Below, piece after piece: positions 18,808 through 45,372 of a stretch of DNA of 64,000 bases. This DNA is from Colletotrichum lupini. Lineage: Eukaryota; Ascomycota; Sordariomycetes; Glomerellales; Glomerellaceae. Every line of letters starts with the position of its first letter. The stretch's first letter is position 1. The notes beneath the pieces are model-generated. The model was not told the DNA's origin, ran no database searches, and saw nothing but the letters and a program-made list of their open reading frames with translations. The stretch is from NCBI RefSeq assembly GCF_023278565.1, contig NC_064677.1:6386001-6450000 (forward strand). The letters are read 5' to 3'. The translations under genes were made by a program, and so were the position numbers.

Positions 18808-18812
18808 GTTTC

Positions 18813-19019
18813 TATCGGATTAGAAGTCCAATTCGACCGCGGCATATAGCCGACTACGCAGGGGCTAATTAGGGGGCCCTATTTACGATTATTATAACTA
18901 GCCTAACCTACGGTTAGAACCTCCTTTTTATACTTACGATATAGATATTTATATAGTTTAATTAATCTCTTTATTAACCTATAGTTCGAACTAACTACCC
19001 TATAATAAGAATATTAATA
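18813..19019 (+). repeat. 5' LTR of element A
   Basis: 207 bp beginning TATCGGATT (RIP form of TGTCGGATT). It carries the five-G variant TTAGGGGGCCC, shared only with the LTR at 29164-29370; the element B and C LTRs have four G. This variant ties the two ends of A together. Confidence 0.9.
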
Positions 19020-22000
19020 CTAATTAATAATTAAATTCTATTATTATAAATTAGTAAAATATCTCGCTATATAAAAAAGACGACCTCTTAATACTATACG
19101 AAATAAGAGATTTATACTAATTAACTTTATAAAAATAAAAAATAAAAAAACGATTTTAAAATACCGTACGGAGTTAAGTAATTATAGCCCTTTATTGCTT
19201 ATAAAAAGTTAACGTTTATTACGTTAAACTATATTAATTAATAAAACTGCTTAAGTAACTAGCCTTTTACTATCGCTTTAAATAGCTTTTTTATTAAATA
19301 ACTTTTTTATAACTAGCCCGTAATTAGAAATTAACTAGTTAAATTAATAAAAAGAAATACTTACGTAATAACTACTTACTTAAATAATTAGTATAACGGA
19401 CGATCTTAATAATATAATATAAAAAAGCACTGCGTAATTAAAAAAGAAATCTCTAAATATAAATATTTTTAATAAGCGTAATAAGAACTTATATAAGAGT
19501 TATAAAGTTAAGAGATTTATAGTATATAAAAAGTCCTAATATTACGAGGATCTTGTAAATATAACTTTAAAACTTATAATTTAAATAATCTTTTTATAAC
19601 CCCCTTAATTACTCCCTAAGTATTATTTAAAAATATAATATAAAGGATAGTTTAATAAAAAAAGAGGGGATTTAAAAGTCTTAATAATATTAAGTTAAAA
19701 ATATTATAGATTTTAAAAATTAATTTAAAAAAAAAGGCGGCTATTTTAAAATAATCTTATAACCTCTTATTATAATTACTATTAGTTTAAAAAAAAAGCT
19801 AAAAAAGTATAGCTCTAAAAAAAATAAAACATTTCTAAAGGGCTATTAAAAAGCTCTTTTTTATACTAGCTCTTAATACGTAATTATTAAGTTTAAGAAA
19901 TTAACTAAGTAATAAAAAAGATTACTAATAAGCGATAATTACTTAATTATAATTAAGCTATAAAAAAGACTACTTAAAAAATATAAAATAGGGTACTAAG
20001 AAGCTATAAAAAAAATCTCTAAAATATTTAGCCCTACTAAGTACGAGTAATAAGTAGTATTTTTAATAAGTCCTTAAAGCCCGTAATTTTATAAAAAAAA
20101 GGGCTTAACTTTACTAACTATACTTAATAGCCTATTTAGCTCCTTTATAAGCCGCTTAGTATCTATTTTTAACTATTTTTGTAAAATACTATTCTAAAAG
20201 AAGTAAGTTAAGAAAAAAAGCTATTTAGAAATTATAAAGAGTACGAAGCTTAAGAAGTTAGAAGTATATAAAATAATAAAAATTAGTAACTAATAAAGAT
20301 CCTAAGACTAATTATTATATTTTTTTATAATAATTTAAACGTTTATTATTATTATTAAAAAAAAGAACTACTAAAACCTACCCTTTTATACTAAATAAAA
20401 AAAAAGATTTTAATAAGTATAATAGTTAGTAATTTAAAAAGATAATAATAATCGCTAAAAATAATAAAAATAAAAATAGTAGCAAGATAATAAGAGGAAG
20501 CGAGAATCTCTTAGATCTTAATAAATTCGTTAAGTAATAGAAGCACGAATTTATTATAATTAGTGCGTAGATTAAATATATCCTTATTAAAATTAAATAT
20601 ATTAATAATTATTAATATAAGTATAAGCTAGAGCACGACCCTTAGTAAATTAAAATAAAAAAAAAGAGGATAAAACCCGATCCTAAATAGAATCCTAATT
20701 TTTTATAAATAAATAAATATTAGCCCAGATTATTAAAGAATGTAAATATATAGAATTATAAATTAACTTAATAATAAATAAATTAACGTAATATTAATCT
20801 ATTTAACTAAGGTTTATAAAAAAAAGGGGTTATAGGGGTAACCCCTATTTTACGAGATTATAAATAACTTTAGTTACTAGCTAAATAAATAGTTCGTAAG
20901 TATAAGCTTAGGAATTATAAAAGTAGTTAATAGATTTCTCTATAAGCAAGGGGTATTACTAACGTAATTATAATTATAAGAACTATATAAAATACGAATA
21001 ATAACAATTATAGAGGAGGAATTCGTATTATAAAACTAAATATAGGTTAATAAAGTATATAATCGCTTTAATAAGTTTAAAAAAAGGGTAAACGACCTAA
21101 ATTTCCTCCCTATAATTATTAATAAAAATCTATTATTATAAAAGGATATATAAAAATAAAATATAGTACTAAAAGTACGATAATTGATAATTTTATTTAT
21201 TTTAATTTATAGCTTATTACTATTATTAATATAAAGTTTAGTACTAATCGGCTGATAAAAAAAACGACCTAAAGTTATTAATAGTATATAGCGACGCAAG
21301 GATTATATATAAATATTAAAAATCTAATAATAAATATAAAATAATTTATAAACTTTAAAAAGATCTTTTTAAAAAAGAAATTATATTTTAAAGAGAAGTA
21401 TAAGGTCTTATAAAAAACCCTAATAATATTTTATAATTATTATAAAAAAGTTAGAATTAGAAAATACTAATACTATTCGGTAATTAATATCGTATTTATA
21501 AATAAAGCCTCTAATTATTATTATAAAGCGGTATATAATTTCGATCGAAACGACTTTTTTAGTATTATTAACGTAATTTAAAACTACTTTAAGACTTATA
21601 ATAAAAACCTAAAGCTCTTATTTAAGTTATAAGTAATTTCTTTTATATTTATAGCTAGGATAATAGAGGGTAAATCGTAAATAAAGGTTTTTAAAAAGCT
21701 TATTAATCGAATTAATAAGCTAATAAAAACCTAGCTAAATAAGGGAACTAACGAGTAGAAAATTAAATATCTTTATACTATAATTTAGTATATATTAAAA
21801 ATAAAAATAACCCTATATTAAGTACTTAAAGATTACGAAACGCTCTACTTAAAACTAAGATTTAGCTTTAATATTAAAATAAAAATATTATACTAAACCT
21901 ATTTCTAAGTATATAACGGCCCTTATTAATAATATTAAGTTAATTAAACGTATAATAAGAAAACAAAAGAGGCTAAATACGGTAATCGTTAGTAAAGAGG

Positions 22001-23928
22001 CCTAGATTTATTAAATAGACTAAGATTTAACTTATAAATAAAATAAAATAAAAAGTAATACTATATTTATAAAAAGAAATAGATATTGGTTAAGTAACTA
22101 TTTTAAAAAAGAGCGTATTAAATTATATGAATAATATAAAAAGTTAAGGGTAGTAAATAATAAAACTAGCCCTCGTTAATTTAACTAATTTTTTATTATA
22201 TATAAGGGTAAATCCGGGGGTATAAAACTTAGTAATAGTAGCTAAAATAATAGTTTAGAATATCCGCTCCCTATAAGAAATTTAAAAAATAAAAAAGATC
22301 TTATTCCTTATATTAATAAATGAGATTATAATAAAATTAATAATATTAATTACTCTTTTTTTACCCTGTTAATTTCTAGAGGATATATAAGGCTAAACGA
22401 ATAGAGGGTAGTAAAAGCTCTTAATAAATAGGCTTTTATTTATAAATAGTAAAGGAAGGTCCCTTAAATAATAAATATAGAGGTAGTTAAAAAAATAAAT
22501 TTAATAAAACTAAAGCCTATTCTTTTAATACTTAAGGAGAAGATATTACCTCTCTTAATATTTAAAAAAAAAAATATAATATTAAGTAAATCTAAAGGTA
22601 GTTAAAAGGGTCCTTTTTATACTACCTAAATCCCTTAAATATTAAGCTTATATAAGCATTCTATATAAGTAAAAAGTATAGCTTAGATAATTTTTATAGG
22701 ATTATCTTAAATACTAAAGTATTATAATAGTTAATAAAAAGAAAAGGGTAATTCTAAGTATTATAAAAAATCGTATTAATAATACTTCATATATTAACGG
22801 CGGGTATTATAAAAATTAGTTTCGGCCTAGGTAAAGAAATTATCGCCCTAAGTATAATAAAAATAAAAACGTACTTTAGAACGATAACTTTTTATATTTT
22901 ACTTATTAATACCCTATTTTTCTTATATTTAAAAAATATAAATTAACTAAGTATTATATTTAATAATATAAGCAATAAAATCTTTAGTAATAAGTATTTT
23001 AAGAAAGTTAAATAATAATAGGGGTATACGTTTATAAGGCTTATTAATAATACGAAGTTAATTAACTACTTAATAAAAAGTAAGCTTAGATAGCTATACT
23101 AGAAATTCGGGTACTTATTAATTACGAGGTTATATAACTTCTTAAAGTAATTAGGTAATAATAATATTAAAATAGGGGCGCTAGAGTAGTTAATAAAAGT
23201 ATATTACTAATACTAAATAAATACACAAAGCCTACGCAAATTTAAATTCAAATTACGTAATAAGCTTAATTTTAATTAAGAAATCGTTATTAATATTTTC
23301 TACTTAAATAGTCGGCTAGTCCTATATATAATTAATATAGCTATATTTTTTTAAATAAGGCAATTCCTTTGGGATCTATAAATAAAAATAATATAAATAG
23401 CCCTATAAAGGGGATAGATCGATATATACTAGGGATTATTAAATAGTATTAGAACCGACGCTAGTATTAGTTTTAAATTAATAGAATTTAAAGAAAATAT
23501 AACGGCCTATAGTATATAGTTAAAATTTATACTTATTAAAGCGTATTATAGTATTAGAAAAGTAAAAAGGGTATATTAGTAATTAAAAAGGGCGTTTAGA
23601 ATTATTAAAAAAGAAAATCTAGATTTTATTAATAACGAATGCCTCTAAATAGTACTTAAATACTGTAATAATATTATAGGGCCTAATGGACTTATACAAA
23701 CGCTATTAGTATTTAGAGTATATTTAAAAACGACCTTAGCCTTATTACTATTACTAAATATAAGCTAACGAGCCTAAGTAGTTAAAAAAATAATACGGGT
23801 ACTACGTAAAATAAGTATAAAAAAGTAAATTAACGAGGTAATTACTACGTATAATAAGCCTAATATAGAGGGTAATTTAAATATATTACTAAATTCGGAT
23901 ACATAAGTATAATACGAAATTATTTAAT

Positions 23929-24440
23929 CTAGCACGTATAGCTTTAACGAGGTAATGCGGGATATTCTTATAAAGAATATGAAAAGTGAATATTCATATA
24001 GAAGCAAGAATATATGAATATAGGGGATATAAGCGTATATAAAAGAGGTTTTTATAGTAAAAAGAGTAATATAGTTGAATTACTATATAAGAAGTTGCTT
24101 GCTTAACGAAAGGTCTAGGTAGGCAAATACACGCCTACATATAGGCATAAAAACCTCCTACTAGAATATTCCATTGCTTATTAATTATGATATAATTAAT
24201 AAGCGTATACGTAAGTGAATGCGTAATCGTAGTACGTAATTCCGCCTCGAGTAAATTCCAGATTATTTAGTTACCTTCCAGTACTTTCCATTGCTCACGT
24301 AAGCTTATATAAGCAGTATTGCTTACATAATCAATACCTATAATGATCTACAGAAATCGTAGATTAATATGGTATATAGTTTGCTTACGTAATATTGATA
24401 ATAAGGCGAATAATAAGGTAAACAAAGTTACCTTCGTAAC
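23929..24440. mobile_element. Nested ~512-bp insertion in element A, little affected by RIP
   Basis: Element B runs straight through this site, whereas A has about 512 extra bases between two copies of ATTTAAT (23922-23928 and 24441-24447), part of which is the target-site duplication. Unlike the surrounding element, the insert contains many CpA and TpG sites. Read on the minus strand it starts TGTTACGAAGGTAAC if the last base pair of the flank is included, so it may be a solo LTR or a non-autonomous element. No coding text was found. Confidence 0.65.
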
Positions 24441-26515
24441 ATTTAATAATAAGCTAGGCTATATAAATTAATTTTTATTAACGAGCGCTCTTATATAATT
24501 ATAAAAAATCGTAACAAGCTATTTAAAGTATTAATTACGGTAGTTAGACCGCATTATATAAATCTTAATAAGGTAATTTCTAACTTATAAAAAAAAAAAA
24601 AGCTACGAAAAACTATATAACCCGCAATAGAAGTATAAGAAAGTATCCTTAATAAAATCGTTATAGTAGTATTAATAAATAATAATAAAAAAGGAAATTA
24701 ATAAAAGGGTATTAATACTACTAGCGAGACGTTATAAAAGACTATGACGATAAGCCCTAACGTAGTAATTTATTACTAATAACGAGGTAATTAATACTTT
24801 TTATATAATAAAAAAGAAAGCTAATTTCGAGCTAATAATTAAACTATATAAAAAAGGCGTAATTATAATTATTAAAAAGCTATATAAGGGATTAGATCTT
24901 ATCGAAATAAACACTCTTTATAATCGAGGGGTTTATAAATTTATTTTTTATAACCTAAAGAAATATATAAACCTCTATATATTGAAATTATAAATAGTTT
25001 ATAACATTAAAAAAAAAATACCCTAACTATATAAAAAGTCTAAATATATAATTTAAAAGTACGGTAATATTAAAAAAGTAATACTACTTATATAATTACC
25101 TATTATATAGCGCTATAGCTAACGATTAATAATAGTATTAATAGTCTTATTATAAAAAAAGGGATATAAGATTTAGAGCTGTAATATTACTTAGGCCTAT
25201 ACCTAATTAGCTATAGAGCTTATAAAGAAAATCCTAGCCTATTTATTAAAAAAAATAGCTAGTAAGTACCCAAAAAGTATAATTATTAAAGTACTTAAGC
25301 TACTATATAGGCTCGTAAAATTGGGCACTTATTAATAAGCTACTTATTACGATTTTTATATTAATTAACTATTAATAGTTACCTCTACGTACGACCCGTA
25401 CTTACTAATCGCAGAGTATAAAGGTAACTAATTTAGGATTATCGGAATATAAACTAACGATATATTAGGCCTATTCGATATTAACTTTATAAAAAAAGAG
25501 GATAAAGAGCTTTAAAAAGCGGGCTTCGTAATAAAGCTAAAAAAGGTCTTTATAATAAACACCTCCCTAGTATTTAACGGTAGGATTCTTATAATTAAAG
25601 GGGAAACCGTCGTCTTTTAGTAAAAGGGGTAGGGCGAGAAGATTAACCTCGTTAATCTAAATATAACTAACGTTAAGAAATAGTATAAGGCTAAGCTTGC
25701 ATAAGGGGTATATATTATAAGTATTTATTAGCCCGAGGCGACTTTTAATTATATTAAAGTAGCGTAGGTTATAAATCTAACTAAACGAGACGTCGAAGTT
25801 CTTAATAAGTAGCTTAAATAGTAATAAATAACTCTTAATTAAGGTCTCGTTTATTACTCAATCGACCTTATAACTAGCAAGCTCTACGTCTTTATTAATA
25901 GGTTATTTATAAATAATAACGACCTTACTTTATAATTAGGGTATATTATTATCCTAGCTAACGAGAGTATAAATAAGAGCGAATTTACTATATATAATAA
26001 TATAATCTACTACTCGTTAACTAAAAGTAAGTAAATAACGAGAAGTATATTAGCGTTAAAAGTTTATAATATAATTAACGGCGTTAACCTCTCCTACGCG
26101 ATTTTAATAACGCTAAAGAAGATTACCGATCGAATTAGCCTTTTATTTATTCTAACGGTTATTTATACCGATTCCTACTTGCTATACGAATACCTCGTTA
26201 AATTAAGAATAATAAAGGAAAAGAGGCTTATAATTAATATTATAGCCCTTAAGTAATCGTATAAAAGGCGCGAGATATTTAAGATCCGTTAGATTAATAA
26301 TAAAAATAACCTCGTAAACGCTTTTATAAAAGTAGTACTAAATAAGGGATTAGAATAATTTATAAGTAGTAAAAAAGTTACTATATAAATAGAGGGATAG
26401 GTTATATAAAAAGAGTAAAAAAAGGGAAAAAAGGAGACGACTTAGTAAACGGGCCCGAGGTCGAATTATACCTCTAATTATAGTAGTTAAATCGATAAAA
26501 AAAAAAGAAAGTTAG

Positions 26516-26720
26516 TATCGGATTAGAAGTCTAATTCGACCGCGGTATATAGCCGACTATATAGGGGCTAATTAGGGGCCCTATTTACGATTATCGTAGC
26601 TAGCCTAACCTATAGTTAGAACCTCTTTTTTATACTTACTACGTAGATATTTATATAGTTTAATTAATCTCTTCGTTAACTACGGTTCGAACTAACTACC
26701 CTGTCATAGGGATACTAACA
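26516..26720 (+). repeat. Copied right LTR of element B
   Basis: 205 bp, identical to 37593-37797, with the four-G variant. It does not match element A's own LTRs at 18813 and 29164 and came in with the pasted block. Confidence 0.9.
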
Positions 26721-26768
26721 CCTAACGATTAAGAAACAACATTTCGTGGATTAAATCTTAGTTGAATT

Positions 26769-27542
26769 TTATTGTTTAGATCTCTGCTTCAACTCACCGC
26801 GCTCCTTTACCAGGGCTGAAATCTGGTTGCCCAAGTCCGAGTTCAACGCCTTGAATCCCTCGACAACACCTTGGCGATCACCCTCGCCCAACTCCTGGCT
26901 CATCTTGAATTTGCCCTGCAGCCTGTCGATGGTGATCTCAATGCCAATGATAGCCATTTTAGACAGATCAATATACCGTTGCGGGGCATCCGAGATTTGC
27001 CACGGCCCAGGACGGCCGTCTTGACCAGTGTATCTCATGATTGACTGCTCTCCCAATTGTGAGAGATCGTGGAGCTGTTTATTCAGGAAACTCGACGTCT
27101 CCTCGGCTTTGGACTCATAAAAGATCTTGGCGCGACCGTACGCCTGCACCGCGGCGTAGTTCCAGGTCGGTACGACTTTGGCCGTCGTTGGCTTGGTTTC
27201 AACGTAGAATTTCGGCGTGACATAGGAGTGGGCGGGCGTGGTGAAGAGGACCAGCACCTCCTGATCGAGAACGTTTCCGGTCCCAGTCCGGTTTTCTGCC
27301 GCTAGTGACTCGACCATCGCCTTGCACTGAGGATTTGCGCGCGCCACATGACCTCTCAGGACGCCGAGCTCGGTTTCGCTAGAGTCATCTTCGACATCTA
27401 ATACCCAGGGGATGTGGCTAGACTGGATGAAAGGGTGATCGGCCGACGGTATAGCTGTTGTAAGGACGCCGAGGGGATAGTCCTTGATGAGCTGACGAAG
27501 TACTCGAATACTATTCTCCACGTGATCTTTCCGAAGCTGCAT
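26769..27542 (-). CDS. PaiB-family FMN-binding protein, copy 1
   Basis: Intronless, 257 aa, ATG at 27542. It matches the PaiB/FMN_bind_2 family (transcriptional regulator PAI 2-type), a flavin-binding split-barrel fold: LRGHVARANP at 62-71, KVVPTWNYAAV at 122-132, SDAP at 184-187 and IDRLQGKFKMSQ at 205-216. The family is known from Bacillus PaiB, a negative regulator of sporulation and protease genes, and is common in fungi, where the role is unclear; FMN binding is inferred. There is no signal peptide, so it is probably cytosolic. The gene is identical to 37846-38619 and arrived with the pasted block. With about 0.75 kb of unchanged upstream sequence and its TATA box present, it could be expressed. 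Confidence 0.9.
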   Translation of the reverse strand: MQLRKDHVENSIRVLRQLIKDYPLGVLTTAIPSADHPFIQSSHIPWVLDVEDDSSETELGVLRGHVARANPQCKAMVESLAAENRTGTGNVLDQEVLVLFTTPAHSYVTPKFYVETKPTTAKVVPTWNYAAVQAYGRAKIFYESKAEETSSFLNKQLHDLSQLGEQSIMRYTGQDGRPGPWQISDAPQRYIDLSKMAIIGIEITIDRLQGKFKMSQELGEGDRQGVVEGFKALNSDLGNQISALVKERGELKQRSKQ

Positions 27543-27669
27543 GGTGTCGAAGACAAGAAGATGGATACAGTAAATTGGCTAAATGGCGTTGTTGTTTGTT
27601 GATATCAATGGGTTGAAATTGATAGTACTTGAGTTGATCTGATGACAGCGGTTTATGTCGGTTCACCGG

Positions 27670-27676
27670 CTTTATA
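27670..27676 (-). promoter_or_regulatory. TATA box of PaiB-like gene, copy 1
   Basis: TATAAAG on the minus strand, 128 bp upstream of the ATG at 27542, in GC-rich surroundings. The same box is at 38747-38753 in copy 2. Confidence 0.5.
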
Positions 27677-28637
27677 GGGCCGGGCGCTTCCGTGTATTTC
27701 CTCTAGTTCCTGCCGAAACGTAATAGGACATGTTTTTGAAAGGGCGTGCATGTGGTCCACTAATTATGGTTTCTAACGTCAATCGCGGAAGTTTTCGCCT
27801 CCGCAAGTACTCGCAATGGCAATATCACAACCACATCTGGAAAGTCTGTTCATTAACGCCAGAGGCCGGAAGGGCTCAATCTTCGACGATCGCATTGATT
27901 TATATTCTGATGACTTCAGCCACCTATCTCCGTATCCGTGCGTAACAAAGACCGTTCCGCGGTCTCAAGCTTGGTCGTCACTGTCGAGAGTCAGTCAGCC
28001 CCGGTGACTCAACCCCCAACATGGCATCTCCGCGGGAGGTAGGTTAGATAGCTTCGGTGCGGGTGACTCTTATCTGAATCCGCATGAAAGGTGCACAAGC
28101 AAGCAAGGTCTGCATGAGCAACTGCTTTTACACGTATACGTACACTCTGACGCATTTCGAGGGATGTTGTTTGTCAGAACTAGCCAATTACAAGAGACTG
28201 ATTACATCCAGGTGCAGGACTCCCGGCCCCGCGATGTGGATACGAGGGGCGGGGCTTCGCACCGGCTCCAAAGCCGCTTGTCTGCCGGAATAGAAGCGAG
28301 GGAACTGGTGGATACCGGGATCCGGCAACCGGTGGTCGGAGCATTCATGGTTTCATACTTACCTTACATGGAAAGTTTCGCCGCATCTCAACATAACCCT
28401 ACAGAGGCCTTTGAGCTTTGAGGAATGGAAAGATGCGGCACTCTTTTTCACTGACAAACAAGAATTTCCAGCTTTGTACATCTGACAACATTATCTCCCC
28501 GGAAAAAGCATTACCTTAGCCGATGATTTCCTTTTTTAAAAGCTGGCTATCGATGAGCGCGCTCTAGCGTTATCTCAATACTACCAAAATTCCGAGCAGC
28601 TCAAATCTCCCACCAGAGCCATCTGAGCCATCCAACA
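27677..28637. other. Intergenic part of the duplicated block, copy 1
   Basis: Normal composition. Short plus-strand frames of 62-85 codons lie here, but they overlap each other and match nothing; they are the same in copy 2 only because the whole block is. It holds the PaiB promoter and the 3' flank of the oxidase remnant. Confidence 0.5.
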
Positions 28638-28682
28638 TCAACCCACGCGTGAAATCTTGAAGCCTCCTGGGATTCGCGTCTG
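28638..28682 (-). pseudogene. Last 14 codons and stop of the FAD oxidase gene, copied fragment
   Basis: The minus strand reads the C-terminal TRIPGGFKISRVG and stop of the oxidase at 39715-43307. The rest of that gene is missing: at 28683 the sequence changes to element A. It marks the right end of the copied tract. Confidence 0.88.
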
Positions 28683-29370
28683 TAATAAGAAGTATATTAA
28701 CGTTAGAGGTCTACGGTATAATTAATAACGTTAACCTCTCTTATATAATTTTAATAACGCTAAAAAAAATTACTAATTAATTTAACCTTCTACCTATTTT
28801 AATAGTTATTTATACTAATTCCTACTTACTATATAAATACCTTATTAAATTAGGGATAATAAAAAAAAAAAAGCTTATAATTAATATTATAGCCCTTAAG
28901 TAATTATATAAAAAGCGTAAAATACTCGAGATTTATTAAATTAATAATAAAAATAACCTCGTAAACGCTTTTATAAAAGTAGTACTAAATAAGGAGTTAA
29001 AGTAATTTATAAGTAATAAAAAAGTTATTATACGAATAGAGGGATAGGTTATATAAAAAGAGTAAAAAAAAAGGGGGAAAAAGAGATAACTTAGTAAATA
29101 AGCCTAAAGTTAAATTATACCTCTAACTATAATAGTTAAATTAATAAAAGAAAAAAAAGTTAATATTAGATTAGAAGTCTAATTCGACCGTAGTATATAA
29201 CTAACTACGCAGGGGCTAATTAGGGGGCCCTATTTACGATTATTATAACTAACTTAACCTACGGTTAGAACCTCTTTTTTATACCTACGACGCAAATATT
29301 TATATAGTTTAATTAATCTCTTCGTTAACCTACGGTTCGAACCAACTACCCTGTAATAGGGATACTAATA
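28683..29370 (+). mobile_element. Copia element A, right part with 3' LTR
   Basis: Begins at a point corresponding to 26036 in the pasted copy of B, so about 697 bp of A (the equivalent of 25339-26035) are gone. The first bases read as the RNase H stretch TRSxLA-x-x-VY. Its right LTR (29164-29370) has the five-G variant of A's left LTR and is followed by GTTTC (29371-29375), the same target site as at 18808-18812. This piece and 18813-25338 are the two arms of one insertion. Confidence 0.9.
29164..29370 (+). repeat. 3' LTR of element A
   Basis: 207 bp, same length as 18813-19019, five-G variant, followed by target-site copy GTTTC. Confidence 0.9.
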
Positions 29371-29375
29371 GTTTC

Positions 29376-30939: not shown

Positions 30940-30944
30940 CCTAA

Positions 30945-31149
30945 TGTCGGATTGGAAGTCCAATTCGACCGCGGCATACAGCCGACTGCGCAGGGGCCAA
31001 TTAGGGGCCCTATTTACGATTATCGTAGCCAGCCTAACCTACGGTTAGAACCTCCTTTTTATACCTATTACGCAGATATTTATATAGTTTAATTAATCTC
31101 TTTATTAATTATAGTTCGAACTAACTACCTTATTATAAGGATACTAATA
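30945..31149 (+). repeat. 5' LTR of element B
   Basis: 205 bp, TGTCGGATTGG start, four-G variant. Confidence 0.92.
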
Positions 31150-34100
31150 CTAATTAGTAGTTAAATTCTATTATTATAGATCGGTAAGGTATCTTATTAC
31201 GTAAAAGAGACGACCTCTTAATATTATATAAGATAAGAGATTTATATTAATTAACCTTATAGAAGTAAACGAAAAAGGGGGCGATTTTTAAATACCGTAC
31301 GGAATTAAGTAATCGTAGCCCTTTACTACTTATAAGAGGTCGACGTCTACTATATTAAAATATATTAATTAATAGAACCGCTTAAGCGACTAGCCTTTTG
31401 CTATTACCCCGAGTAGCTTTTTTACTAAACGACTTTTCTATAGCCGGCCCGTAATTAAAAATTAACCGGTTAAATTAGTAAAAGGAAATACCTGAGTAAT
31501 AATTACCTAATTACAATTAAGCTACGAAAAAGACTACCTAAAAGATATAAAATAGGGTACTAAGAGGCCGCAAAAGATAAGATCTCTAAAGCATCTAACC
31601 CTACTACGTACGAGTAATAAGTAAGCATTTTTAATAAGTCCTTAAAATCTACGATTTTATAAAAAGGAGGGCTTAACTTCGTTAACTATATTTAACGGCC
31701 TATACGGTTCTTAATAGCTTATATAGCTCCTCTACGAGCCGCCCGGCGTTTATTTTTAACTATTTTTATAGAATACCGCTTTAAAAGAGGTAAGTTAGGG
31801 AAGGAAGCTATTTAGAAATTATAAAAAGTACGAGGCTTAAGAAGCTAGAAGTATACGGGATAGCGGAAATTAATAACTAGTAAAGATCCCGAGACTAATT
31901 ACTATATCTTCTTATAATAATATAAACGTTTGCTATTACTATTATTAAAAAGAACTACTAAAACCTACCCTTTTATACTAAATAAAAAGGAGGATCTTAG
32001 TAAGTACGATAGCTAGCGATTTAAAAGGGCAATAGTAATCGCTAAAAATAATAAAAACAAAAGTAGTAATAAGATAGTAAAAAGAAGCGGGAATTTCCTA
32101 AACCTTAATAAATTCGTTAAGTAATAAAAGTACGGATTTATTATAACTAGCGCGCGGATTAAATATATCCTCGTTAAAATTAAATACGCTAGTAATTACT
32201 AATACGGGTATAAGCTAAAGTATGACCCTTAGCGAGTTAGGGTAAGGAAGAAGAGGACGAAACCCGATCCTTAATAAAATCCTAATCCCTTATAAGTAAG
32301 TAAATATTAACCCGGACTATTAGGGGACGTGGATATATAGAATTACGGATTAGCCTAATAGTAAGCAAATTAACGTAATATTAATCTATTTAACTAAGGT
32401 TTATAAAAAAAAGGGGCTATAGGGGTAACCCCTATTTTATAAGATTATAAACGACCTTAGTTATTAACTAAACAAATAGTTCGTAAGCGCAAGCCTAGGA
32501 ATCGTAAAAGTAGTTAATAGATTCTTTTATAAGCGAGGGGTATTACTAACGCAATTATAATCGCAAGAGCTATATAAAATATTAATAATAATAATTATAA
32601 AAGAGGAATTCGTACTATAGAACTAAGTATAAGTTAATAGAGCGTATAATCGCTTTAACGAATTTAGAAAAAGGGTAAACGACCTAGATTTCCTCCCTAT
32701 AATTACTAACGGAAATCTATTGTTATAAAAGGATATACCGGGGTAAAATATAGTACTAAAAGTATAATAATTAATAATTCTACTTATTTCGATCTACGAC
32801 TCGTTACTATTACTAACGCGAAATTCGGCGCTAATCGGTTAATAAGAAAAGAAATAAACAACCCGAAGTCACTAATAATACGCAGCGACGTAGGGATCGT
32901 ATATAGATACTAAAAATCTAATAGTAAATACGAAGTAATTTATAGACCTTAAAAAAATCTTTCTAAAAGAGAAATTATACTCTGGGGGGAAGTATAAGGT
33001 CTTATAAAAAACCCTAACGATATTTTACGATTATTACGAAAAAATTAGAATTAGGGAATACTAATACTATTTAGTAATTAATATCGTATTCGTAAGTAAA
33101 GCCTCTAATTATTATTACGAAGCGGTACGTAATCTCGATTAAAACGACTTTTTTAGTATAATTAACGTAATCTAAAGCCGCTTTAAGACTTATAATAAGA
33201 ACCTAGAGCTCCTATCTAAGCTACGAGCGATTTTTTTTATATCTATAGCTAGGATAATAAAAAGTAAATTATAAGTAGAGATCCTTAAAGAGCTTATCGA
33301 TCGAATTAATAAGCTAGCGAAAACCTAGCTAAATAAGGGGATAAATAAGCAAAAAGTCGGATATCTCTATACTATAGTCTAGTATATATTAGAAATAAAA
33401 ATAACCCTATACTAAGTACTTAAAAACTACGAAACGTTCTACTCGAGGCTAAGATCTAGCTTTAATATTAAAATAAGAATACCGTACTAAACCTACCTCT
33501 AAGCGTACGACGGCCCTTATTAATAATATTAAGTCGATCGAACGTATAATAAGAAAAGAAAAGAGGCTAAATACGGTAATTACTAGTAAAGAGGCCTAGA
33601 TTTATTAAATAAGTAAAGATTTAACTTATAAATAGGGTAATAAAAAAGGTAATACTATATTTATAAAAAGGATAAATATTAGTTAAGTAACTACTCCGAG
33701 GAAAAGCGTACTAAATTATACGAATAGTATAAAAAGTCGAGGGTAGTAGATAGTAAAACTAGCCCTCGTCGGTTTAACTAATTCTTTGTTATATATAAGG
33801 GTAGATCTGGGGGTACGGAACTTAGTAATAGTAGCTAAAGTAGCGGCCTAAAGTATATACCCCCTATAAGAGATTTAGAAAATAAAAAAGATCTTACCCC
33901 CTATATTAACGAATTAGATTATAATAAAATTAATAATATTAACTACTCTGTTTTCGCCCCGTTAGCCTCTAGAGGATATACGAGGCTAAACGAATAGAGG
34001 GTAGTAAAAGCTCTTAATAAATAAGCTTTTATTTATAAATAATAAGAAAAGGTCCCTTAGATAACGGATATAAAAGTACTTAAAAAGGTAAATCTAATAG

Positions 34101-37100
34101 GGCCGAAGCCTAATTTCTTAACGATTAAGGAGAAGACGCTATCTCTCTTAATATTTAAAGAAAAGGAATATAGTACTAAGTAAATCTAGGGGTAGTTAAA
34201 GGGGTCCTTTTTATACTACTTAGATCCCTTAAATACTAAGCTCGTATAAGTATTTTATACGAGCGAAAGGTATAGCCTAGACGATTTCTATAGGATTATT
34301 TTAAATACTAGGGTATTATAATAGTTAACTAGAGGAAAAGGGTAATTCTAAGCGCTATAAAAGATCGCATTAGTAACGCTTAATACGTTAATAGAAGGTA
34401 TTATAAAGATTAGTTTTAGCCTAGGTAAGGAAATCGTCACCCTAAGTATAGTAAAAGTAGAGACGTACTTCGGAACGATAACTTTTTATATTTTACTTAT
34501 TAATACCCCATTTCTCTTATATTTAAAAGATATAGATCGACTAAGTATTATATTTAATAATACGAGGAACAGAATCTCTAGCGGTAAATACTTCGAGATA
34601 GTTAAATAACGATAGGGGTATGCGTTTATAAAGCTTACTAATAATACGAAGTTAATTAATTACTTAACGGAAAATAAGCTCAAAAGACTATACTAGAGAT
34701 TCGGGCACCCGTTAGTTACGAGGCTATATAACCTCCTAAAGTAATTAAGTAATAATAATATTAAAATAGGGGCGCTAGAGTAGTTAATAAAAGTATACTA
34801 CTAATACTAGATAAATACGCAGAGCTTACGTAAATTTAAGTTTAAATTACGTAATAAGCTTAACTTTAACTAGGAAATCGTTATCGATATCTTTTACTTA
34901 AATAGTCGGCTAGTACTATATATAATCGACGTAGCTATATCCTTCTAAGTAGGGCAATTCCTCCGGGATTTATAAGTAAAGATAGTATAAATAGCCCTAC
35001 GAAAAAGCTAGATTAATATATACTAGGGACCGCTAGACGGTATTAGAACCGACGCTAATACTAGCTTTAAGTTAGTAGAATTTAAGGATAATACGACGGC
35101 CTATAGTATATAGCTAAAAATCGTACTCGTTAAAGCGCACTATAGTATTAAAAAGGTAAAGAGGGTATACTAGTAGTTAAAAAGGGCGTTTAGAATTATT
35201 AAAAAGGAAAATCCAGATTTTACTAATAACGAATGCCTCTAAATAGCACTTAAATACTATAACGACACTATAGGGCCTAACGGACTTATACTAACGCTAT
35301 TAGTATTTAGAGTATATTTAAGAACGACCTTAGCCTTATTACCGTTACTAAGCATAAGCTAACGAGTACGAGTAGTTAAAAAAGTAATACGGGTACTACG
35401 CGAGGTAAGTATAAAAAGGTAAGTTAACGAGGTAATTACTATATATAATAGGCCTAATATAGGGGATAATCTAAATATACTACTAAATTTAGATATATAA
35501 GTATAGCGCGAAATTACTTAATAATAAGCTAGGCTATATAAATTAATTTCCGTTAACGAGCGCTCTTATATAGTCGCGAGAGATCGTAACTAGCTACTTA
35601 AAATATTAATTATAGTAGTTAGACCGTATTATATAAATCCTAACGAGGTAATTTCTAACTTATAAAAAGAAAAAGAGCTAGGGGAAACTATATAACCCGT
35701 AGTAGAGGCATAGGAAATTATCCTTAACGAAATCGTTATAATAGTACTAATAAATAACGAAGAAGAGGAAATTACTAAAAGGGTACTAATACTACTACCG
35801 AGACGTTATAAAAACCTACGATGGTAAGCCCTAACGAAGCAATTTATTACTAATAACGAGGTAATTAATACCTTTTATATAGTAAAAAAGAAAGCCGATT
35901 TCGAGCTAGCGGTTAAACTACGTAAGGAAAGCGTAATTATAACTACTAAAAAGCTATATAAAGGATTAGATCTTATCGAAGCAAATACTCTTTATAATCG
36001 AGGGGTCTATTGATTTATCTTATACGACTTAGAAAAATATATAAACCTCTATATATTTAAATTACGAATAGTTCGTAAGATTAAAAAGAAAGGAATACCC
36101 TAGCCGTATAAGAAGTCTAAATACGTAATTTAGGAGTACGGCGACGTTAAAAAGGCAACGCTACTTATATAATCGCTTATTATATAGCGCTATAGCTAAC
36201 GATTAATAATAGTACTAATAATATCGCTACGGAAAAAGGGATACGAGATTTAAAGCCGTAATATTACCTAGGCTTATACCTAATCGGCCACAGGGCTTAT
36301 AAAGAAAACCCTAGCCTATTTACTAAAAGAAATAGCTAGTAAGTACTTAAAAAACACGATTATTAAAGTACTTAAGCTACTATATAAGCTCGTAGAATTG
36401 GGTACTTATTAATAGGCTACTTATTACGATTTTTATATTAATTAACTATTAATAGTTACCTCTACGTACGACCCGTACTTACTAATCGCAGAGTATAAAG
36501 GTAACTAATTTAGGATTATCGGAATATAAACTAACGATATATTAGGCCTATTCGATATTAACTTTATAAAAAAAGAGGATAAAGAGCTTTAAAAAGCGGG
36601 CTTCGTAATAAAGCTAAAAAAGGTCTTTATAATAAACACCTCCCTAGTATTTAACGGTAGGATTCTTATAATTAAAGGGGAAACCGTCGTCTTTTAGTAA
36701 AAGGGGTAGGGCGAGAAGATTAACCTCGTTAATCTAAATATAACTAACGTTAAGAAATAGTATAAGGCTAAGCTTGCATAAGGGGTATATATTATAAGTA
36801 TTTATTAGCCCGAGGCGACTTTTAATTATATTAAAGTAGCGTAGGTTATAAATCTAACTAAACGAGACGTCGAAGTTCTTAATAAGTAGCTTAAATAGTA
36901 ATAAATAACTCTTAATTAAGGTCTCGTTTATTACTCAATCGACCTTATAACTAGCAAGCTCTACGTCTTTATTAATAGGTTATTTATAAATAATAACGAC
37001 CTTACTTTATAATTAGGGTATATTATTATCCTAGCTAACGAGAGTATAAATAAGAGCGAATTTACTATATATAATAATATAATCTACTACTCGTTAACTA

Positions 37101-37592
37101 AAAGTAAGTAAATAACGAGAAGTATATTAGCGTTAAAAGTTTATAATATAATTAACGGCGTTAACCTCTCCTACGCGATTTTAATAACGCTAAAGAAGAT
37201 TACCGATCGAATTAGCCTTTTATTTATTCTAACGGTTATTTATACCGATTCCTACTTGCTATACGAATACCTCGTTAAATTAAGAATAATAAAGGAAAAG
37301 AGGCTTATAATTAATATTATAGCCCTTAAGTAATCGTATAAAAGGCGCGAGATATTTAAGATCCGTTAGATTAATAATAAAAATAACCTCGTAAACGCTT
37401 TTATAAAAGTAGTACTAAATAAGGGATTAGAATAATTTATAAGTAGTAAAAAAGTTACTATATAAATAGAGGGATAGGTTATATAAAAAGAGTAAAAAAA
37501 GGGAAAAAAGGAGACGACTTAGTAAACGGGCCCGAGGTCGAATTATACCTCTAATTATAGTAGTTAAATCGATAAAAAAAAAAGAAAGTTAG

Positions 37593-37797
37593 TATCGGAT
37601 TAGAAGTCTAATTCGACCGCGGTATATAGCCGACTATATAGGGGCTAATTAGGGGCCCTATTTACGATTATCGTAGCTAGCCTAACCTATAGTTAGAACC
37701 TCTTTTTTATACTTACTACGTAGATATTTATATAGTTTAATTAATCTCTTCGTTAACTACGGTTCGAACTAACTACCCTGTCATAGGGATACTAACA
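37593..37797 (+). repeat. 3' LTR of element B
   Basis: 205 bp, ends GGGATACTAACA and is followed by target-site copy CCTAA. It differs from the 5' LTR by many C/T and G/A changes but is identical to 26516-26720. Confidence 0.92.
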
Positions 37798-37845
37798 CCT
37801 AACGATTAAGAAACAACATTTCGTGGATTAAATCTTAGTTGAATT

Positions 37846-38619
37846 TTATTGTTTAGATCTCTGCTTCAACTCACCGCGCTCCTTTACCAGGGCTGAAATC
37901 TGGTTGCCCAAGTCCGAGTTCAACGCCTTGAATCCCTCGACAACACCTTGGCGATCACCCTCGCCCAACTCCTGGCTCATCTTGAATTTGCCCTGCAGCC
38001 TGTCGATGGTGATCTCAATGCCAATGATAGCCATTTTAGACAGATCAATATACCGTTGCGGGGCATCCGAGATTTGCCACGGCCCAGGACGGCCGTCTTG
38101 ACCAGTGTATCTCATGATTGACTGCTCTCCCAATTGTGAGAGATCGTGGAGCTGTTTATTCAGGAAACTCGACGTCTCCTCGGCTTTGGACTCATAAAAG
38201 ATCTTGGCGCGACCGTACGCCTGCACCGCGGCGTAGTTCCAGGTCGGTACGACTTTGGCCGTCGTTGGCTTGGTTTCAACGTAGAATTTCGGCGTGACAT
38301 AGGAGTGGGCGGGCGTGGTGAAGAGGACCAGCACCTCCTGATCGAGAACGTTTCCGGTCCCAGTCCGGTTTTCTGCCGCTAGTGACTCGACCATCGCCTT
38401 GCACTGAGGATTTGCGCGCGCCACATGACCTCTCAGGACGCCGAGCTCGGTTTCGCTAGAGTCATCTTCGACATCTAATACCCAGGGGATGTGGCTAGAC
38501 TGGATGAAAGGGTGATCGGCCGACGGTATAGCTGTTGTAAGGACGCCGAGGGGATAGTCCTTGATGAGCTGACGAAGTACTCGAATACTATTCTCCACGT
38601 GATCTTTCCGAAGCTGCAT
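37846..38619 (-). CDS. PaiB-family FMN-binding protein, copy 2 (source)
   Basis: Identical to 26769-27542 at every residue of the 257-aa product and in the flanking DNA. It is intronless, with ATG at 38619 and PaiB motifs LRGHVARANP, KVVPTWNYAAV and the C-terminal RLQGKFKMSQ. Its 3' end lies 49 bp from element B's right LTR, so the transcript may terminate in the LTR. Its upstream region is shared with the oxidase gene's 3' end (39715), both on the minus strand. Whether it acts as a regulator or an enzyme cannot be told from sequence. Confidence 0.9.
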   Translation of the reverse strand: MQLRKDHVENSIRVLRQLIKDYPLGVLTTAIPSADHPFIQSSHIPWVLDVEDDSSETELGVLRGHVARANPQCKAMVESLAAENRTGTGNVLDQEVLVLFTTPAHSYVTPKFYVETKPTTAKVVPTWNYAAVQAYGRAKIFYESKAEETSSFLNKQLHDLSQLGEQSIMRYTGQDGRPGPWQISDAPQRYIDLSKMAIIGIEITIDRLQGKFKMSQELGEGDRQGVVEGFKALNSDLGNQISALVKERGELKQRSKQ

Positions 38620-38746
38620 GGTGTCGAAGACAAGAAGATGGATACAGTAAATTGGCTAAATGGCGTTGTTGTTTGTTGATATCAATGGGTTGAAATTGAT
38701 AGTACTTGAGTTGATCTGATGACAGCGGTTTATGTCGGTTCACCGG

Positions 38747-38753
38747 CTTTATA
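38747..38753 (-). promoter_or_regulatory. TATA box of PaiB-like gene, copy 2
   Basis: TATAAAG on the minus strand, 128 bp upstream of the ATG at 38619. Confidence 0.5.
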
Positions 38754-39714
38754 GGGCCGGGCGCTTCCGTGTATTTCCTCTAGTTCCTGCCGAAACGTAA
38801 TAGGACATGTTTTTGAAAGGGCGTGCATGTGGTCCACTAATTATGGTTTCTAACGTCAATCGCGGAAGTTTTCGCCTCCGCAAGTACTCGCAATGGCAAT
38901 ATCACAACCACATCTGGAAAGTCTGTTCATTAACGCCAGAGGCCGGAAGGGCTCAATCTTCGACGATCGCATTGATTTATATTCTGATGACTTCAGCCAC
39001 CTATCTCCGTATCCGTGCGTAACAAAGACCGTTCCGCGGTCTCAAGCTTGGTCGTCACTGTCGAGAGTCAGTCAGCCCCGGTGACTCAACCCCCAACATG
39101 GCATCTCCGCGGGAGGTAGGTTAGATAGCTTCGGTGCGGGTGACTCTTATCTGAATCCGCATGAAAGGTGCACAAGCAAGCAAGGTCTGCATGAGCAACT
39201 GCTTTTACACGTATACGTACACTCTGACGCATTTCGAGGGATGTTGTTTGTCAGAACTAGCCAATTACAAGAGACTGATTACATCCAGGTGCAGGACTCC
39301 CGGCCCCGCGATGTGGATACGAGGGGCGGGGCTTCGCACCGGCTCCAAAGCCGCTTGTCTGCCGGAATAGAAGCGAGGGAACTGGTGGATACCGGGATCC
39401 GGCAACCGGTGGTCGGAGCATTCATGGTTTCATACTTACCTTACATGGAAAGTTTCGCCGCATCTCAACATAACCCTACAGAGGCCTTTGAGCTTTGAGG
39501 AATGGAAAGATGCGGCACTCTTTTTCACTGACAAACAAGAATTTCCAGCTTTGTACATCTGACAACATTATCTCCCCGGAAAAAGCATTACCTTAGCCGA
39601 TGATTTCCTTTTTTAAAAGCTGGCTATCGATGAGCGCGCTCTAGCGTTATCTCAATACTACCAAAATTCCGAGCAGCTCAAATCTCCCACCAGAGCCATC
39701 TGAGCCATCCAACA

Positions 39715-42700
39715 TCAACCCACGCGTGAAATCTTGAAGCCTCCTGGGATTCGCGTCTGGAACTTCCCTTCAGGATCATACTTGGCTGCGACCTCGCGGA
39801 TGAAGTCCACATTAGCAGAGCCATACGTCTTGATCGGATCTTGGCTTGGGTCAGCGTAGTTCAGGTAACGCCAATTGACGTTTCCATCGACAGAAATAGC
39901 ATAGTCTGCGATTTGGGCAGACGCTGAGGCCATACGTGCTCGAGCAACAGCTTCCTGAGCTTCGGTATTGATGGTAACGAGACCAAGCCAGAGAATTGCA
40001 TTCTCCTTCTCCCCATCAAGACCGAGGACATTACCACCATTCTCGGTACCAATGGCTGCGAAGTAGGCAGGCAGTGGTTGGAAGACCATCTGGGTAGTGA
40101 ACTGATCTGCCCCGACAACAACCTTCATAGCGTCGACGAAGTCCTGGTGAGCCTCGACAGCCTTCTTCAGGATTGCTTCTTCGTTCTTGAACGTTAATGT
40201 AAACCACACAGATCTATACCGTAAGGTCAATCCAGGTATTACTTTCAAAGTCTAAGGGGCAACGAGACGCTACGAACCTAGAGCCGGCAGGAGTCTGGGA
40301 GTTCAATGCCAAATCAGCCATGCTCCGATGAGTCATGGTGCTGCTGACGGCGGGAATCTGGTTTATCTTCGCGAACGATGTGGTGTTCGAATTACCCTGG
40401 GTGTTGATGCGAGAAGCAGCAATGAGTATATCGTCGCCCAAAGCAGTATTGTGGGTGTAGACAACAACCAGTGCGACGTCAGCCAAACTCTGCTCGTGGT
40501 TGGTGAAGTCGACGACAGCACTGACGACGGCATCGGAGTTATCCTTGGTCATCATGTGGATACCCGTGTAGAGATCTTTTGCCGGTAGTGCCTCGAGATC
40601 GAATCTTGTTACGATTCCAAAGTTGCTACTGCCACCCTTGAGAGCTTTGAAGAGGTCAGGGTTGGTTTCCTTGTTGGCATTGAGGACGCTGCCATCGGCA
40701 AGCACGACCTCGTAGTTTCGCACAGAGTCTGCTCCAAAACCCATGCGGCCGGTGTAATAAGAGTTGCCGCCTCCCAGAAGAAAGCCACCGACACCCACGC
40801 CTCCATCGCGGCCACCGGTCACAGTGACATTGCTCTTGAGAAGCTTGGCATACACATCCTTCCAGTGGTCTCCGGGGCCAACAGAGGCAAGATTAGTCTC
40901 CGGGTCGTAAGAGGTCTGGTTAAGGTAGACCAAGTCGATTGTCACACCGTTAGCAATGTTGTTAGTGCCTGCCCAGTGGTTGTGGCCTCCTCCACAGACC
41001 GCAATGTGCCAGTCTCCGGCACCTGATCCAGCCTCCAACAGTGTAGTCAGAGTCTTGGATACTTCGGTGGTATCCCGTGGCTGGACAAGACACCACGGCC
41101 GTAGACGAGCACTGACAGACCAGTAAGTCAAAGCACCCACTTTTGGGCACCCCCCCCTTTTGGGCACCCCCAAAAATCCCTCCCAGCCACTATATTAAAA
41201 CCCTACCTATTATTTCAATTCAACATAACAATTATAAAAATCGTCTAAATGCATTCCTTTTTAGTACACTTACTAATTAATAAGTAATAGTATCGTATAC
41301 TAAAAATGAGCTCTAATAGGTACTTAATACTATTAAAAACGGTCTCTCTATTAAAAGGGCCTCGATTGAGTTTAGGGTTCCTAGGATAATACTTTAGGGT
41401 CGAAAGAGAGGCTACTAGACGAGGGCGAGGGTATTTATAGAGCTTTAGAGGCTTCTTTTATAGTAAGAAGACTAGCTAGCTTAATAGATTCGTATATAGT
41501 ATTACCTAGGTATTATACTAACCTATAAATAGATTAAGGAATTCGCTAAGTAAGTTCTAAGGTCCTAAGGGGATAATAAACTACTTAATAAGAAATAGAT
41601 TAACGCTTTTATTAAAAAGAATCTATTAGTAAGGGTTTAGAGAAGTCGTCTAATTAATTCGCGCCGCGTTAATAAAGCTATTACTAATATAATTAAATAA
41701 TAGTTTAAATTACTTAATATACTAGAGATTAGCGGTATTAAATAGGCTAATAAGTATAATATAGATAAGACTAATATAATAGAGGGTAAGGGAGCTAATA
41801 GGCTAGTTTTAGGTATAATAAAGGCTATAATAATATAAAAAAAAGAGCTTAGTTTACGTACCTAGGTAACGATTATTAAGTATATCTCTATTAATAGTAG
41901 AGCTATTAAACTACTAGTTATTTATAAGGAAAAGTCGGTTTAATAGTAGTAGTTCCCTCTTTAACTTACTGCTTATAATAGTTAGAAGTTTATAGTAATA
42001 GATAATAGCTAGACGACCGACGAGACTGCCCTTTACTAACTAAAGGAAGTATTCTTATTATAGACTAAGACCCCCCCTATTAGAGGGCTTAGTAAGCTAA
42101 ACTAGCCTCGACTGTTAGTACTAAATAGGCATAGGAGTTATACGACGATAGAATTTATATAAGAGTGTTATAAAAATAACGTCTACTTATTATTCTTATT
42201 ATTATATACTTCCTATATCCTCTAGCTATTAAATATAGCTATCTTTAGGCCTATTAAGTCTATATATAAAAAGGAGCTTAGTAAGGAGGATATAATAAAC
42301 AATTTTATTATTATTAAAAAGCAGTACTTCTTAAGCTACTACTAGCTTGCTCGTTTAGCTAGTCTAACGTCGTTAAATATACGAAGTAAGTAGAAAGTAA
42401 TTAGACTATAGCTACTTAATATAGCTAAGCTACTTCTTAACCTAATAGTCCTACTTATATAAGTTATACTATTTAAAAGGGGCACAGAAGCTAGGTAAAC
42501 GATTAGTAATACTAATAGACTACTTAACTAGGCATTAGCGACCTCTATTATTAACTAGTTAACTCTTAGGAAGGCTAGCGAGCTCTACGATTACTTAAAG
42601 CTATTTATAGAGCTTAGTCTAGATAATAATACTTAACGACTACTATTCCAAAAGGTAAAAAAAGCTTTTAGGGAGCAGGCTTATTAATTAGCTATATCTT

Positions 42701-43307
42701 AGTACTAAGTTCGAGTTCTTAAGGCTAGGATTAAGCGCATAAGGCCTAAAAAAAAAAAGATTATATATCTAGACCTAAATACTAAGTTCGCGGATATTTA
42801 GAACGTATAGAAAGCTTAGGAGGACTTTAGTAACTGTCTAGTTAGTCCTAATCGACTCGTAGGGGTCGAATTACCTAGGGAGAATTTTGATTATATTATT
42901 ATAGCAGTAGAAGGTAGTTAATTAATTGATTGTGGTTGGTGTTGATGTTTGGATGCTATGTTTTGTTAGGGTGCCCAAAAGGGGGGGGTGCCCAAAAGTG
43001 GGTGCTTTGACTTATGTCGAGATCCGCGCCTCGTAGCCTGCTTCGGTTGCGAGAAGCAGACGATCTGCCAAGCCTGCGGCGATGAGAGCATCACACTGTC
43101 ATGGCGATATATTAGCGGCCGCAAATGATCGCATTCCGTTTCTGCAAGGGAATAGCATACAGGTAGAATACCGGTGCGTGGTGTCTCCGCGGACCAAGTC
43201 GTTACTGAATCGGGAATCCTGTCGTTTGCCGCAAAGCAAATGCCGGGAAGAAACAACGTCGAAGCGGCCAAGAGCCCCGCGCCCATGCCGGCGTAAGTCA
43301 TGGGCAT
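39715..43307 (-). pseudogene. Secreted FAD-linked oxidase (BBE family) split by a Fot1/pogo transposon
   Basis: Exon 1 is 43161-43307 (ATG at 43307). Intron 1 is 43096-43160, with branch-like GCTAATA and end CAG. Exon 2 is 43013-43095 plus 40278-41123, interrupted by the transposon. Intron 2 is 40214-40277 and exon 3 is 39715-40213. With the transposon and one TA ignored, the frame is 524 codons with no stop, the usual length of berberine-bridge-type oxidases. Visible parts are a signal peptide ending FLPGICFA, an FAD-binding-4 domain with CGGGHNHWAG (His near residue 124 for covalent flavin) and GVGVGGFLLGGG, then the BBE tail WRYLNYAD...YDPEGKFQ. The cysteine used for a second flavin bond in some relatives is not seen at its usual place. 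The family oxidises sugars, alkaloids or polyketide intermediates. The insertion sits between T76 and Y77 and should destroy expression. Confidence 0.9.
41126..43012 (+). mobile_element. RIP-mutated Fot1/pogo (Tc1/mariner) DNA transposon
   Basis: Total 1,887 bp with terminal inverted repeats of about 40 bp, identical at both ends and starting AGTCAAAGCACCC, flanked by the dinucleotide TA (41124-41125, 43013-43014), the Tc1/mariner target site. The interior is RIP-mutated. On the plus strand the DDE transposase is still readable: around 41975-42065 the frame gives a NS-x-TTDETAL-x-x-LKEVF pattern with Trp codons turned to TAG, and further on HRSYTT-x-EFI, CYKNNVYLLFL and FRPIKS, matching fungal Fot1-type proteins. 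The ends escaped RIP while the core did not. It is not active, but the intact ends could be mobilised by a relative. Confidence 0.92.
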
Positions 43308-43536: not shown

Positions 43537-45372
43537 TGTTAGTATCCCTATTATAGGGTAGTTAGTTCGAACCGTAGTTAACGAAGAGATTAATTAAACT
43601 ATATAAATATCTGCGTAGGTATAAAAAGGAGGTTCTAACTATAGATTAGGCTAGCTATAATAATCGTAAATAGGGCCCCTAATTAGCCCCTATATAGTCG
43701 GCTATATACCGCGGTTGAATTAGATTTCTAATCCGATATTAACTTTCTCTTTTTTTTATTAATTTAACCGCTATAGTTAGAGGTATAATTCGACCTCGGG
43801 CCCGTTTACTAAGTTATCTCCTTTTCCCCCTTTTCTCTACTTTTTTTATATAACCTATCTTTTTATTCGTACGGTAACTTTTCTATTACTTATAAATTGC
43901 TCTAATCCCTTATTTAGTACTACTTTTATAAAAACGTCTATAAGGTTATTTTTATTATTAATTTAATAAATCTCGAGTCTCTCGCGCCTTTCGTACGATT
44001 ACCTAAGGGCTATAATATTAATTATAAGCCTCTTTTCTTTTATCGTTCTTAATTTAACGAGGTATTCGTGTAGCGAGTAAGAATTTATATAGATAACTGT
44101 TAGAATAAGTAGAAAGCTAATTCGATTAATAATCTTCTTTAGCGTTATTAAAATCGTATAAGAGAGGTTAACGCCGTTAATTATACTATAGACCTCTAAT
44201 ACTAATATACTTCTTATTATCCGCTTATTTTTAGTTAATAAGTAATAGATTATATTACTATATATAGTAAATTCGCTCTTACCTATACTCTCGTTAGCTA
44301 GGATAATAATATACCCTAATTACGAAGTAAGGTCGTTATTATTCGTAAATAACCTATTAACGAAGACGTAGAGCTTATTAGTTATAAGGTCGATCGGGTA
44401 GTAAACGAAACCTCGATCGAGATTCGTTTATTACTACTTAAGCTACTTATTAAGTACCTTACCGTCTTATTTAGTTAGATCTATAGCTTATACTACCCTA
44501 GCGTAGTTAAAAGTCGCTTTAAGCTAATAAATACTCATAATATATACCCCTCGCGCGAGCTTAGCTTTATACTACTTTTTAATATTAATTACGTTCGGAT
44601 TAACGAAGTTAATCTTCTCGCCCTGCCCTTTTTATTAAAAAACGACGGTTTCCCTTTCGATTATAAAAATCCTATTATTAAATACTAAGGGGGTATTTAT
44701 TATAAGGACCTCTTTTAGCTTCGTTACGAGGCCCGCTTTTTAAAGCTCCTTATCCTCTTTTATTATAAAGTTAATATTAAATAGGCTTAATATATCGTCG
44801 GTCTATATTTTAACGATCCTAAATTAGTTACCTTCGTACTCCGTAACTAATAAGTACGGGTCGTATATAGAGGTAACTATTAATAATTAATTAATATAAA
44901 AATCGTAATAAGTAGCTTATTAATAGGTGCCCGATTCTGCGAGCCTATATAGTAGCTTAAGTACTTTAATAATCGTACTTTTTAGGTACTTACTAGCTAT
45001 TTCCTTTAGTAAATAGGCTAGGATTTTCTTTATAAGCCCTGTAGCCGATTAGGTATAGGCCTAGGTAATATTACGGCTCTAAATCTCGTATCCCTTTTTT
45101 TATAACGATACTATTAGTGCTATTATTAATCATTAGCTATAGCGCTATATAGTGGGCGATTATATAAGTAGCGTCGCCTTTTTAACGTCGCCGTACCCCT
45201 AAATTACGTATTTAGACTTCTCGTACGGCTAGGGTATTCTTTTCTTTTTAATCTTACGAACTGTTCGTAATTTAAATATATAAAGGTTTATATATTTTTC
45301 TAGGTCGTATAGGATAAATCGATAGACCCCTCGATCGTAAAGAGTATCTACTTTAATAAGATCTAATCCCTC
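43537..45372 (-). mobile_element. Truncated copia element C (same family as A and B)
   Basis: One LTR (43537-43738, about 202 bp, minus orientation, four-G variant) and about 1.6 kb of adjacent interior matching the 3' part of element B in reverse. Homology stops near 45372, at the point corresponding to about 24893 in element A, where unique DNA of the transcription-factor gene starts. The 5' two thirds and the other LTR are missing, so no target-site pair can be checked. It is RIP-mutated. Confidence 0.87.

Follow-up and report, generated by a model that had tools for sequence, protein, structure and literature searches.

A dead LTR retrotransposon of the fungus Colletotrichum lupini carries an exact 3344 bp copy of the 3′ end of a sister element together with the host DNA beyond it. 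The dead transposon thereby holds an intact PaiB-type gene, identical to the one beside the sister element. The two elements, A (recipient) and B (donor), lie in the window analysed here, a stretch of 64,000 nucleotides (G000:C4:6386001-6450000) in a genome of 63,443,975 bp and 12 contigs. This arrangement is probably best explained by a strand of A that invaded B, was extended by about 3.3 kb of copying and was end-joined to A's other side.

Both A and B are LTR retrotransposons with paired LTRs and 5 bp target site duplications (Table 1). Five open fragments were compared with Pfam and matched no family, and none of the 53 genome-wide matches to PF07727 (Copia-type reverse transcriptase) falls within the window. 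The Copia label for A and B comes from the preliminary description of this DNA, and agrees only with the report that Copia is the commonest transposon in C. lupini, a fungus called asexual (PMC11645255). A third 3′ fragment of the family, inverted, lies at 43537-45371 and is 85-87% similar to the patch and to B.

Table 1. Features of elements A and B and of the copied tract (positions in the window)
Feature	Position	Strand	Remarks
Left target site duplication of A	18808-18812	.	GTTTC
Element A	18813-29370	+	From self-comparison of the window; same orientation as B
Left LTR of A	18813-19019	+	Five-G and extra-C variants
Rest of A's left part	19020-25338	+	Heavy transition mutation; contains the insertion 23929-24442
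514 bp insertion in A	23929-24442	.	Target site TTAAT on both sides; many near-identical copies
Patch	25339-28682	+	Exact copy of 36416-39759
Copy of B's right LTR	26516-26720	+	Inside the patch
Copy of B's target site	26721-26725	.	CCTAA
Second PaiB-type gene	26769-27542	-	Complete, 257 aa, PF04299
Copied oxidase gene tail	28638-28682	-	Last 14 codons and stop
Non-homologous junction into A	28682-28683	.	0-1 bp microhomology
Right part of A	28683-29370	+	Includes right LTR 29164-29370 (five-G and extra-C variants)
Right target site duplication of A	29371-29375	.	GTTTC
Element B, donor	30945-37797	+	Target sites CCTAA at 30940-30944 and 37798-37802
Donor tract	36416-39759	+	B's 3′ end, flank, PaiB-type gene, oxidase tail

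Edges, cargo and direction of the copied tract

Patch and donor do not differ at a single position, and 1382 bp of the patch are element sequence, B's right LTR included. To the left of the patch, A and B differ at ~15% of sites. Between 24443 and 25345, 140 differences were counted, gaps included, and 124 of them are transitions, an excess between repeat copies that is what RIP would leave. At 15% divergence, the chance of finding no difference in 1383 bp is ~1e-98. The longest exact tract that A or B has in common with 60 other loci, a set that leaves out seven loci from this window, measures 94 bp.

The left edge of the patch lies within homologous sequence. The last mismatch between A and B is at 25338, and the offset of 11077 remains constant across the edge, i.e. 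donor and recipient, ~85% alike at the entry point, are in register there. The preliminary description, according to which the replacement DNA enters A through homologous element sequence, is thereby borne out at 25338/25339. Self-comparison of the window yields a 4.24 kb match that runs across B's right end into host DNA.

Copying continues past the shared homology, and 26726-28682 is B's flank. The order of the cargo is as first described: B's right LTR and target site, a complete PaiB-type open reading frame and the C-terminal codons of an oxidase with their stop. The PaiB-type protein matches PF04299 with an E value of 7.7e-48 (162.8 bits, cut-off 22.4); it shares 98% identity with a protein of Colletotrichum abscissum and 89% with one of C. 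salicis, which places the host within or close to the C. acutatum complex. Neither this protein nor the oxidase C-terminal piece has a match in NCBIfam. The next gene is labelled an oxidase because its upstream frame encodes an FAD_binding_4 domain; the C-terminal piece alone matched no family in Pfam, and the two are presumed here to form one oxidase gene. The 1095 bp that separate the PaiB-type start codon from the oxidase stop were all copied. In the assembly, the host part (26722-28682) has four matches, two at 100% and two that are 69-72% fragments on C1.

The right edge is of another kind. Beyond it, the donor continues into the oxidase gene and A into its own 3′ part. An alignment of family copies places 28683 opposite B 37113, 697 bp beyond 36416, so that 697 bp of A are missing at the junction, the very distance at which the copy had been said to rejoin A. 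Of the 52 loci put into this alignment, only 11 span the junction and are correctly oriented; nine of these have G, as at 28682, and two have A, as in B. Thus, the microhomology amounts to 1 or 0 bp, and no base was added.

The direction of copying can be read from the two loci. CCTAA is paired around B and occurs a third time behind the LTR of the patch, and the oxidase frame continues across 39759 only at B, where the donor locus appears unaltered and the sequence runs on past this position. These two features identify B as the donor and rule out reverse copying from A to B. The target sites pair as had been supposed, GTTTC at A and CCTAA at B. Further along, the donor oxidase frame is broken by an insertion (41124-43014) whose terminal 46 bp, at 41124-41169 and 42969-43014, are perfectly inverted copies of each other; an 80.6% relative lies in C1:5956001-5974000.

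Unity of element A and age of the copy

The two ends of A have the same target site, in agreement with the preliminary description. The five-G LTR variant, by the same account private to A, turned out to be rare rather than private, since it occurs in 19 of 894 pattern-matched LTRs; it is a pair of indels that marks A instead. The second indel, one additional C at another place in the LTR, is found in 20 of 954 pattern-matched LTRs and, among 51 distinct LTRs in the loci retrieved, only in the two of A. Both indels together occur only in A's two LTRs among all 19 five-G LTRs read.

Spacing adds a third element. The LTRs of A are 10351 bp apart; subtraction of the patch excess (2647 bp) and of the insertion with its target duplication (519 bp) leaves 7185 bp. 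Among 93 listed places on C1 (875 genome-wide), element-sized LTR spacings are 6595-6881 bp (17 pairs) and 7166-7217 bp (eight pairs, leaving out one pair of 7146 bp that spans two elements), and the corrected value falls inside the latter class. The family thus has two main length classes in the C1 LTR pairs, 6.6-6.9 kb and 7.17-7.22 kb; B, with a spacing of 6648 bp, belongs to the short class and A, after correction, to the long one.

Overall similarity of the LTRs is less telling. With flanks of a few bases included, A's left and right LTRs are separated by 26 transitions and two transversions, A's left and B's left LTR by 18 transitions and four transversions, and A's right LTR and fragment C by 23 transitions and no transversion. 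A's two LTRs are therefore not clearly nearest each other, which counts against their pairing, and heavy RIP would explain this. As heavy RIP can hide LTR kinship, the pairing of A's ends relies on target site, indels and spacing. Collectively, these characters of the sequence indicate that the two ends belong to one element, and the target site, the double LTR signature and the corrected spacing rule out an origin of the ends from two unrelated elements.

The same observations bear on whether the patch could be an artefact of assembly or of a chimeric molecule, which would likewise produce perfect identity. Such an origin is very unlikely. The right junction links unrelated sequences and so cannot be created by repeat confusion, outside the patch A and B differ at ~15% of sites, and A's paired ends and normal corrected spacing are independent of the patch being real.

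By the rule of three, the absence of differences in 3344 bp implies a divergence below ~0.09%, and RIP has not acted on the copy since it was made. The 514 bp insertion in A points in the same direction: of 296 candidate matches to its 502 bp core, 40 were scored, and 39 of these are further full-length copies at 98-99%, which argues that its family has lately been free of RIP. Two copies of the insertion flank a young Copia reverse transcriptase on C2 and one adjoins another on C4; the insertion may therefore be a solo LTR of that family. The existence of a young, apparently un-RIPped Copia family beside the dead A/B family in this genome is deduced from 20 of the 53 PF07727 matches, which lie in an uninterrupted frame of 1438 aa.

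Origin of the patch

In the proposed sequence of events, A was already inert and mutated when its 3′ third would have been broken or gapped. The left end of A, ~85% like B at this point, would have paired with B, either 11 kb along the chromosome or on the sister chromatid, and synthesis would have copied 3.3 kb rightwards through the rest of B, the LTR, the target site, the PaiB-type gene and the oxidase tail. The new strand, devoid of homology to A's right end, would then have been released and end-joined with 0-1 bp microhomology, at the cost of 697 bp of A. This is the repair model already put forward in the preliminary description. Its visible parts stand, namely homologous entry, copying out into B's flank, non-homologous exit and a fixed direction from B to A, and it is on account of these that templated repair is preferred; the break, the polarity of synthesis and the singleness of the event we infer. 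Identity, register, direction, both junctions and the unity of A's ends are, for their part, read directly from the DNA.

Several points count against templated repair. Invasion would have proceeded through ~85% identity, even though a sister chromatid would presumably have been available. The endings described in mouse cells always have microhomology or added bases (PMC5104497), and here there is 0-1 bp and nothing added. Finally, no second case came to light in the limited material inspected. On C1, two stretches of unusual LTR spacing (18 kb and 17 kb) proved to consist of separate neighbouring elements, with best direct self-matches of 91.6% and 86%. Likewise, the only pairs with 150 exact bases in common among 72 loci are loci that overlap, the patch and the insertion carried by A. 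These two stretches and 72 loci are too small a sample for a rate.

A different route would proceed in two stages. First, the 11,077 bp that reach from A's 3′ part to the oxidase tail would be duplicated in tandem by a non-homologous event, which creates the junction at 28682/28683; next, A and the first of the two B copies would recombine through their homology and delete what lies between, which leaves the junction at 25339. Reasoning from the coordinates, this yields the present structure exactly, the 697 bp loss included. Yet it requires two events, and its deletion would have to use ~85% homology beside perfect 11 kb repeats, a competition that ranks it below templated repair. Moreover, the two junctions lie at most 697 bp apart in element coordinates, which would be expected for one break and a coincidence for two events. 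The two-step route is therefore unlikely. Single-crossover integration of a circle of 11 kb was also considered and rejected: it predicts a second spacer and a second left half of B, but two 61-base spacer probes occur once each in the window and self-comparison reveals no second copy.

A template switch during replication, of the FoSTeS/MMBIR type, would need no two-ended break and would start from a fork stalled in A that moves to B by homology, copies 3.3 kb and returns to A. Junctions of the same types would result, and such switches are reported in the same class of events (PMC5104497). By sequence alone, this scenario and templated repair are indistinguishable. The return to A, however, has at most 1 bp of microhomology, which offers little guide for a second switch, and a switch of this kind is judged quite improbable.

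Significance and comparison with known systems

Later mutation usually blurs the traces of templated repair. In the present case, the dead elements' own mutational barcodes make both edges and the direction of copying legible at single-base resolution, and a whole additional gene was produced. Should sibling strains retain the ancestral state, this would date and prove one route of gene duplication in a supposedly clonal fungus. The barcode logic is applicable to the ~900 pattern-matched LTRs of the A/B family. It is tempting, if rather doubtful, to see in the hundreds of dead, mutated LTR elements of a supposedly largely asexual fungus so many homology handles, through which break repair would run out of an adjacent element into its flank and copy intact host genes with their upstream DNA as a recurring, transposition-free form of gene gain.

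A literature search found no paper on this locus. The type of event is already known, as repair-mediated duplication and gap patching, and the present case is an unusually legible fungal one that yields a whole gene copy. Entry through homology combined with exit without it is the hallmark of long-tract gene conversion that terminates by end joining (PMC5104497). In that work on non-canonical termination (Hartlerode et al. 2016), homologous invasion is likewise followed by copying of kilobases past the homology and by end joining to the second end. The system described there is a mouse-cell reporter with an induced break, sister chromatids and, always, microhomology or added bases, whereas the A/B case is natural, involves diverged repeats and has 0-1 bp of microhomology and no added base. 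In plants, gap patching with filler DNA (Wicker, Buchmann and Keller 2010, as presented in PMC3445842 and PMC4971763) similarly copies host genes during transposon-linked break repair. The plant breaks are reported to accompany transposon insertion; in C. lupini, an old dead element would itself have been broken, and homology to a sister element gave access to the template. Repair-mediated duplications of vertebrates (Pace et al. 2009, PMC2671141) also consist of proximal DNA copied into a broken repeat, and are recognisable because the acceptor is marked by repeats, but those described are at most 619 bp long with donors mostly within 5 kb, as against a tract of 3.3 kb whose donor lies 11 kb off, which was entered through homology and includes a whole gene. 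Among fungi, breaks near similar retroelements in Magnaporthe are reported to be resolved through those elements, as deletions (PMC9684475). Another fungal case is Verticillium dahliae (PMC4971763), likewise a plant pathogen, in which repeats are substrates of faulty repair and segmental duplications are recent; the events described there are large rearrangements, whereas A and B record one small event resolved to the base.
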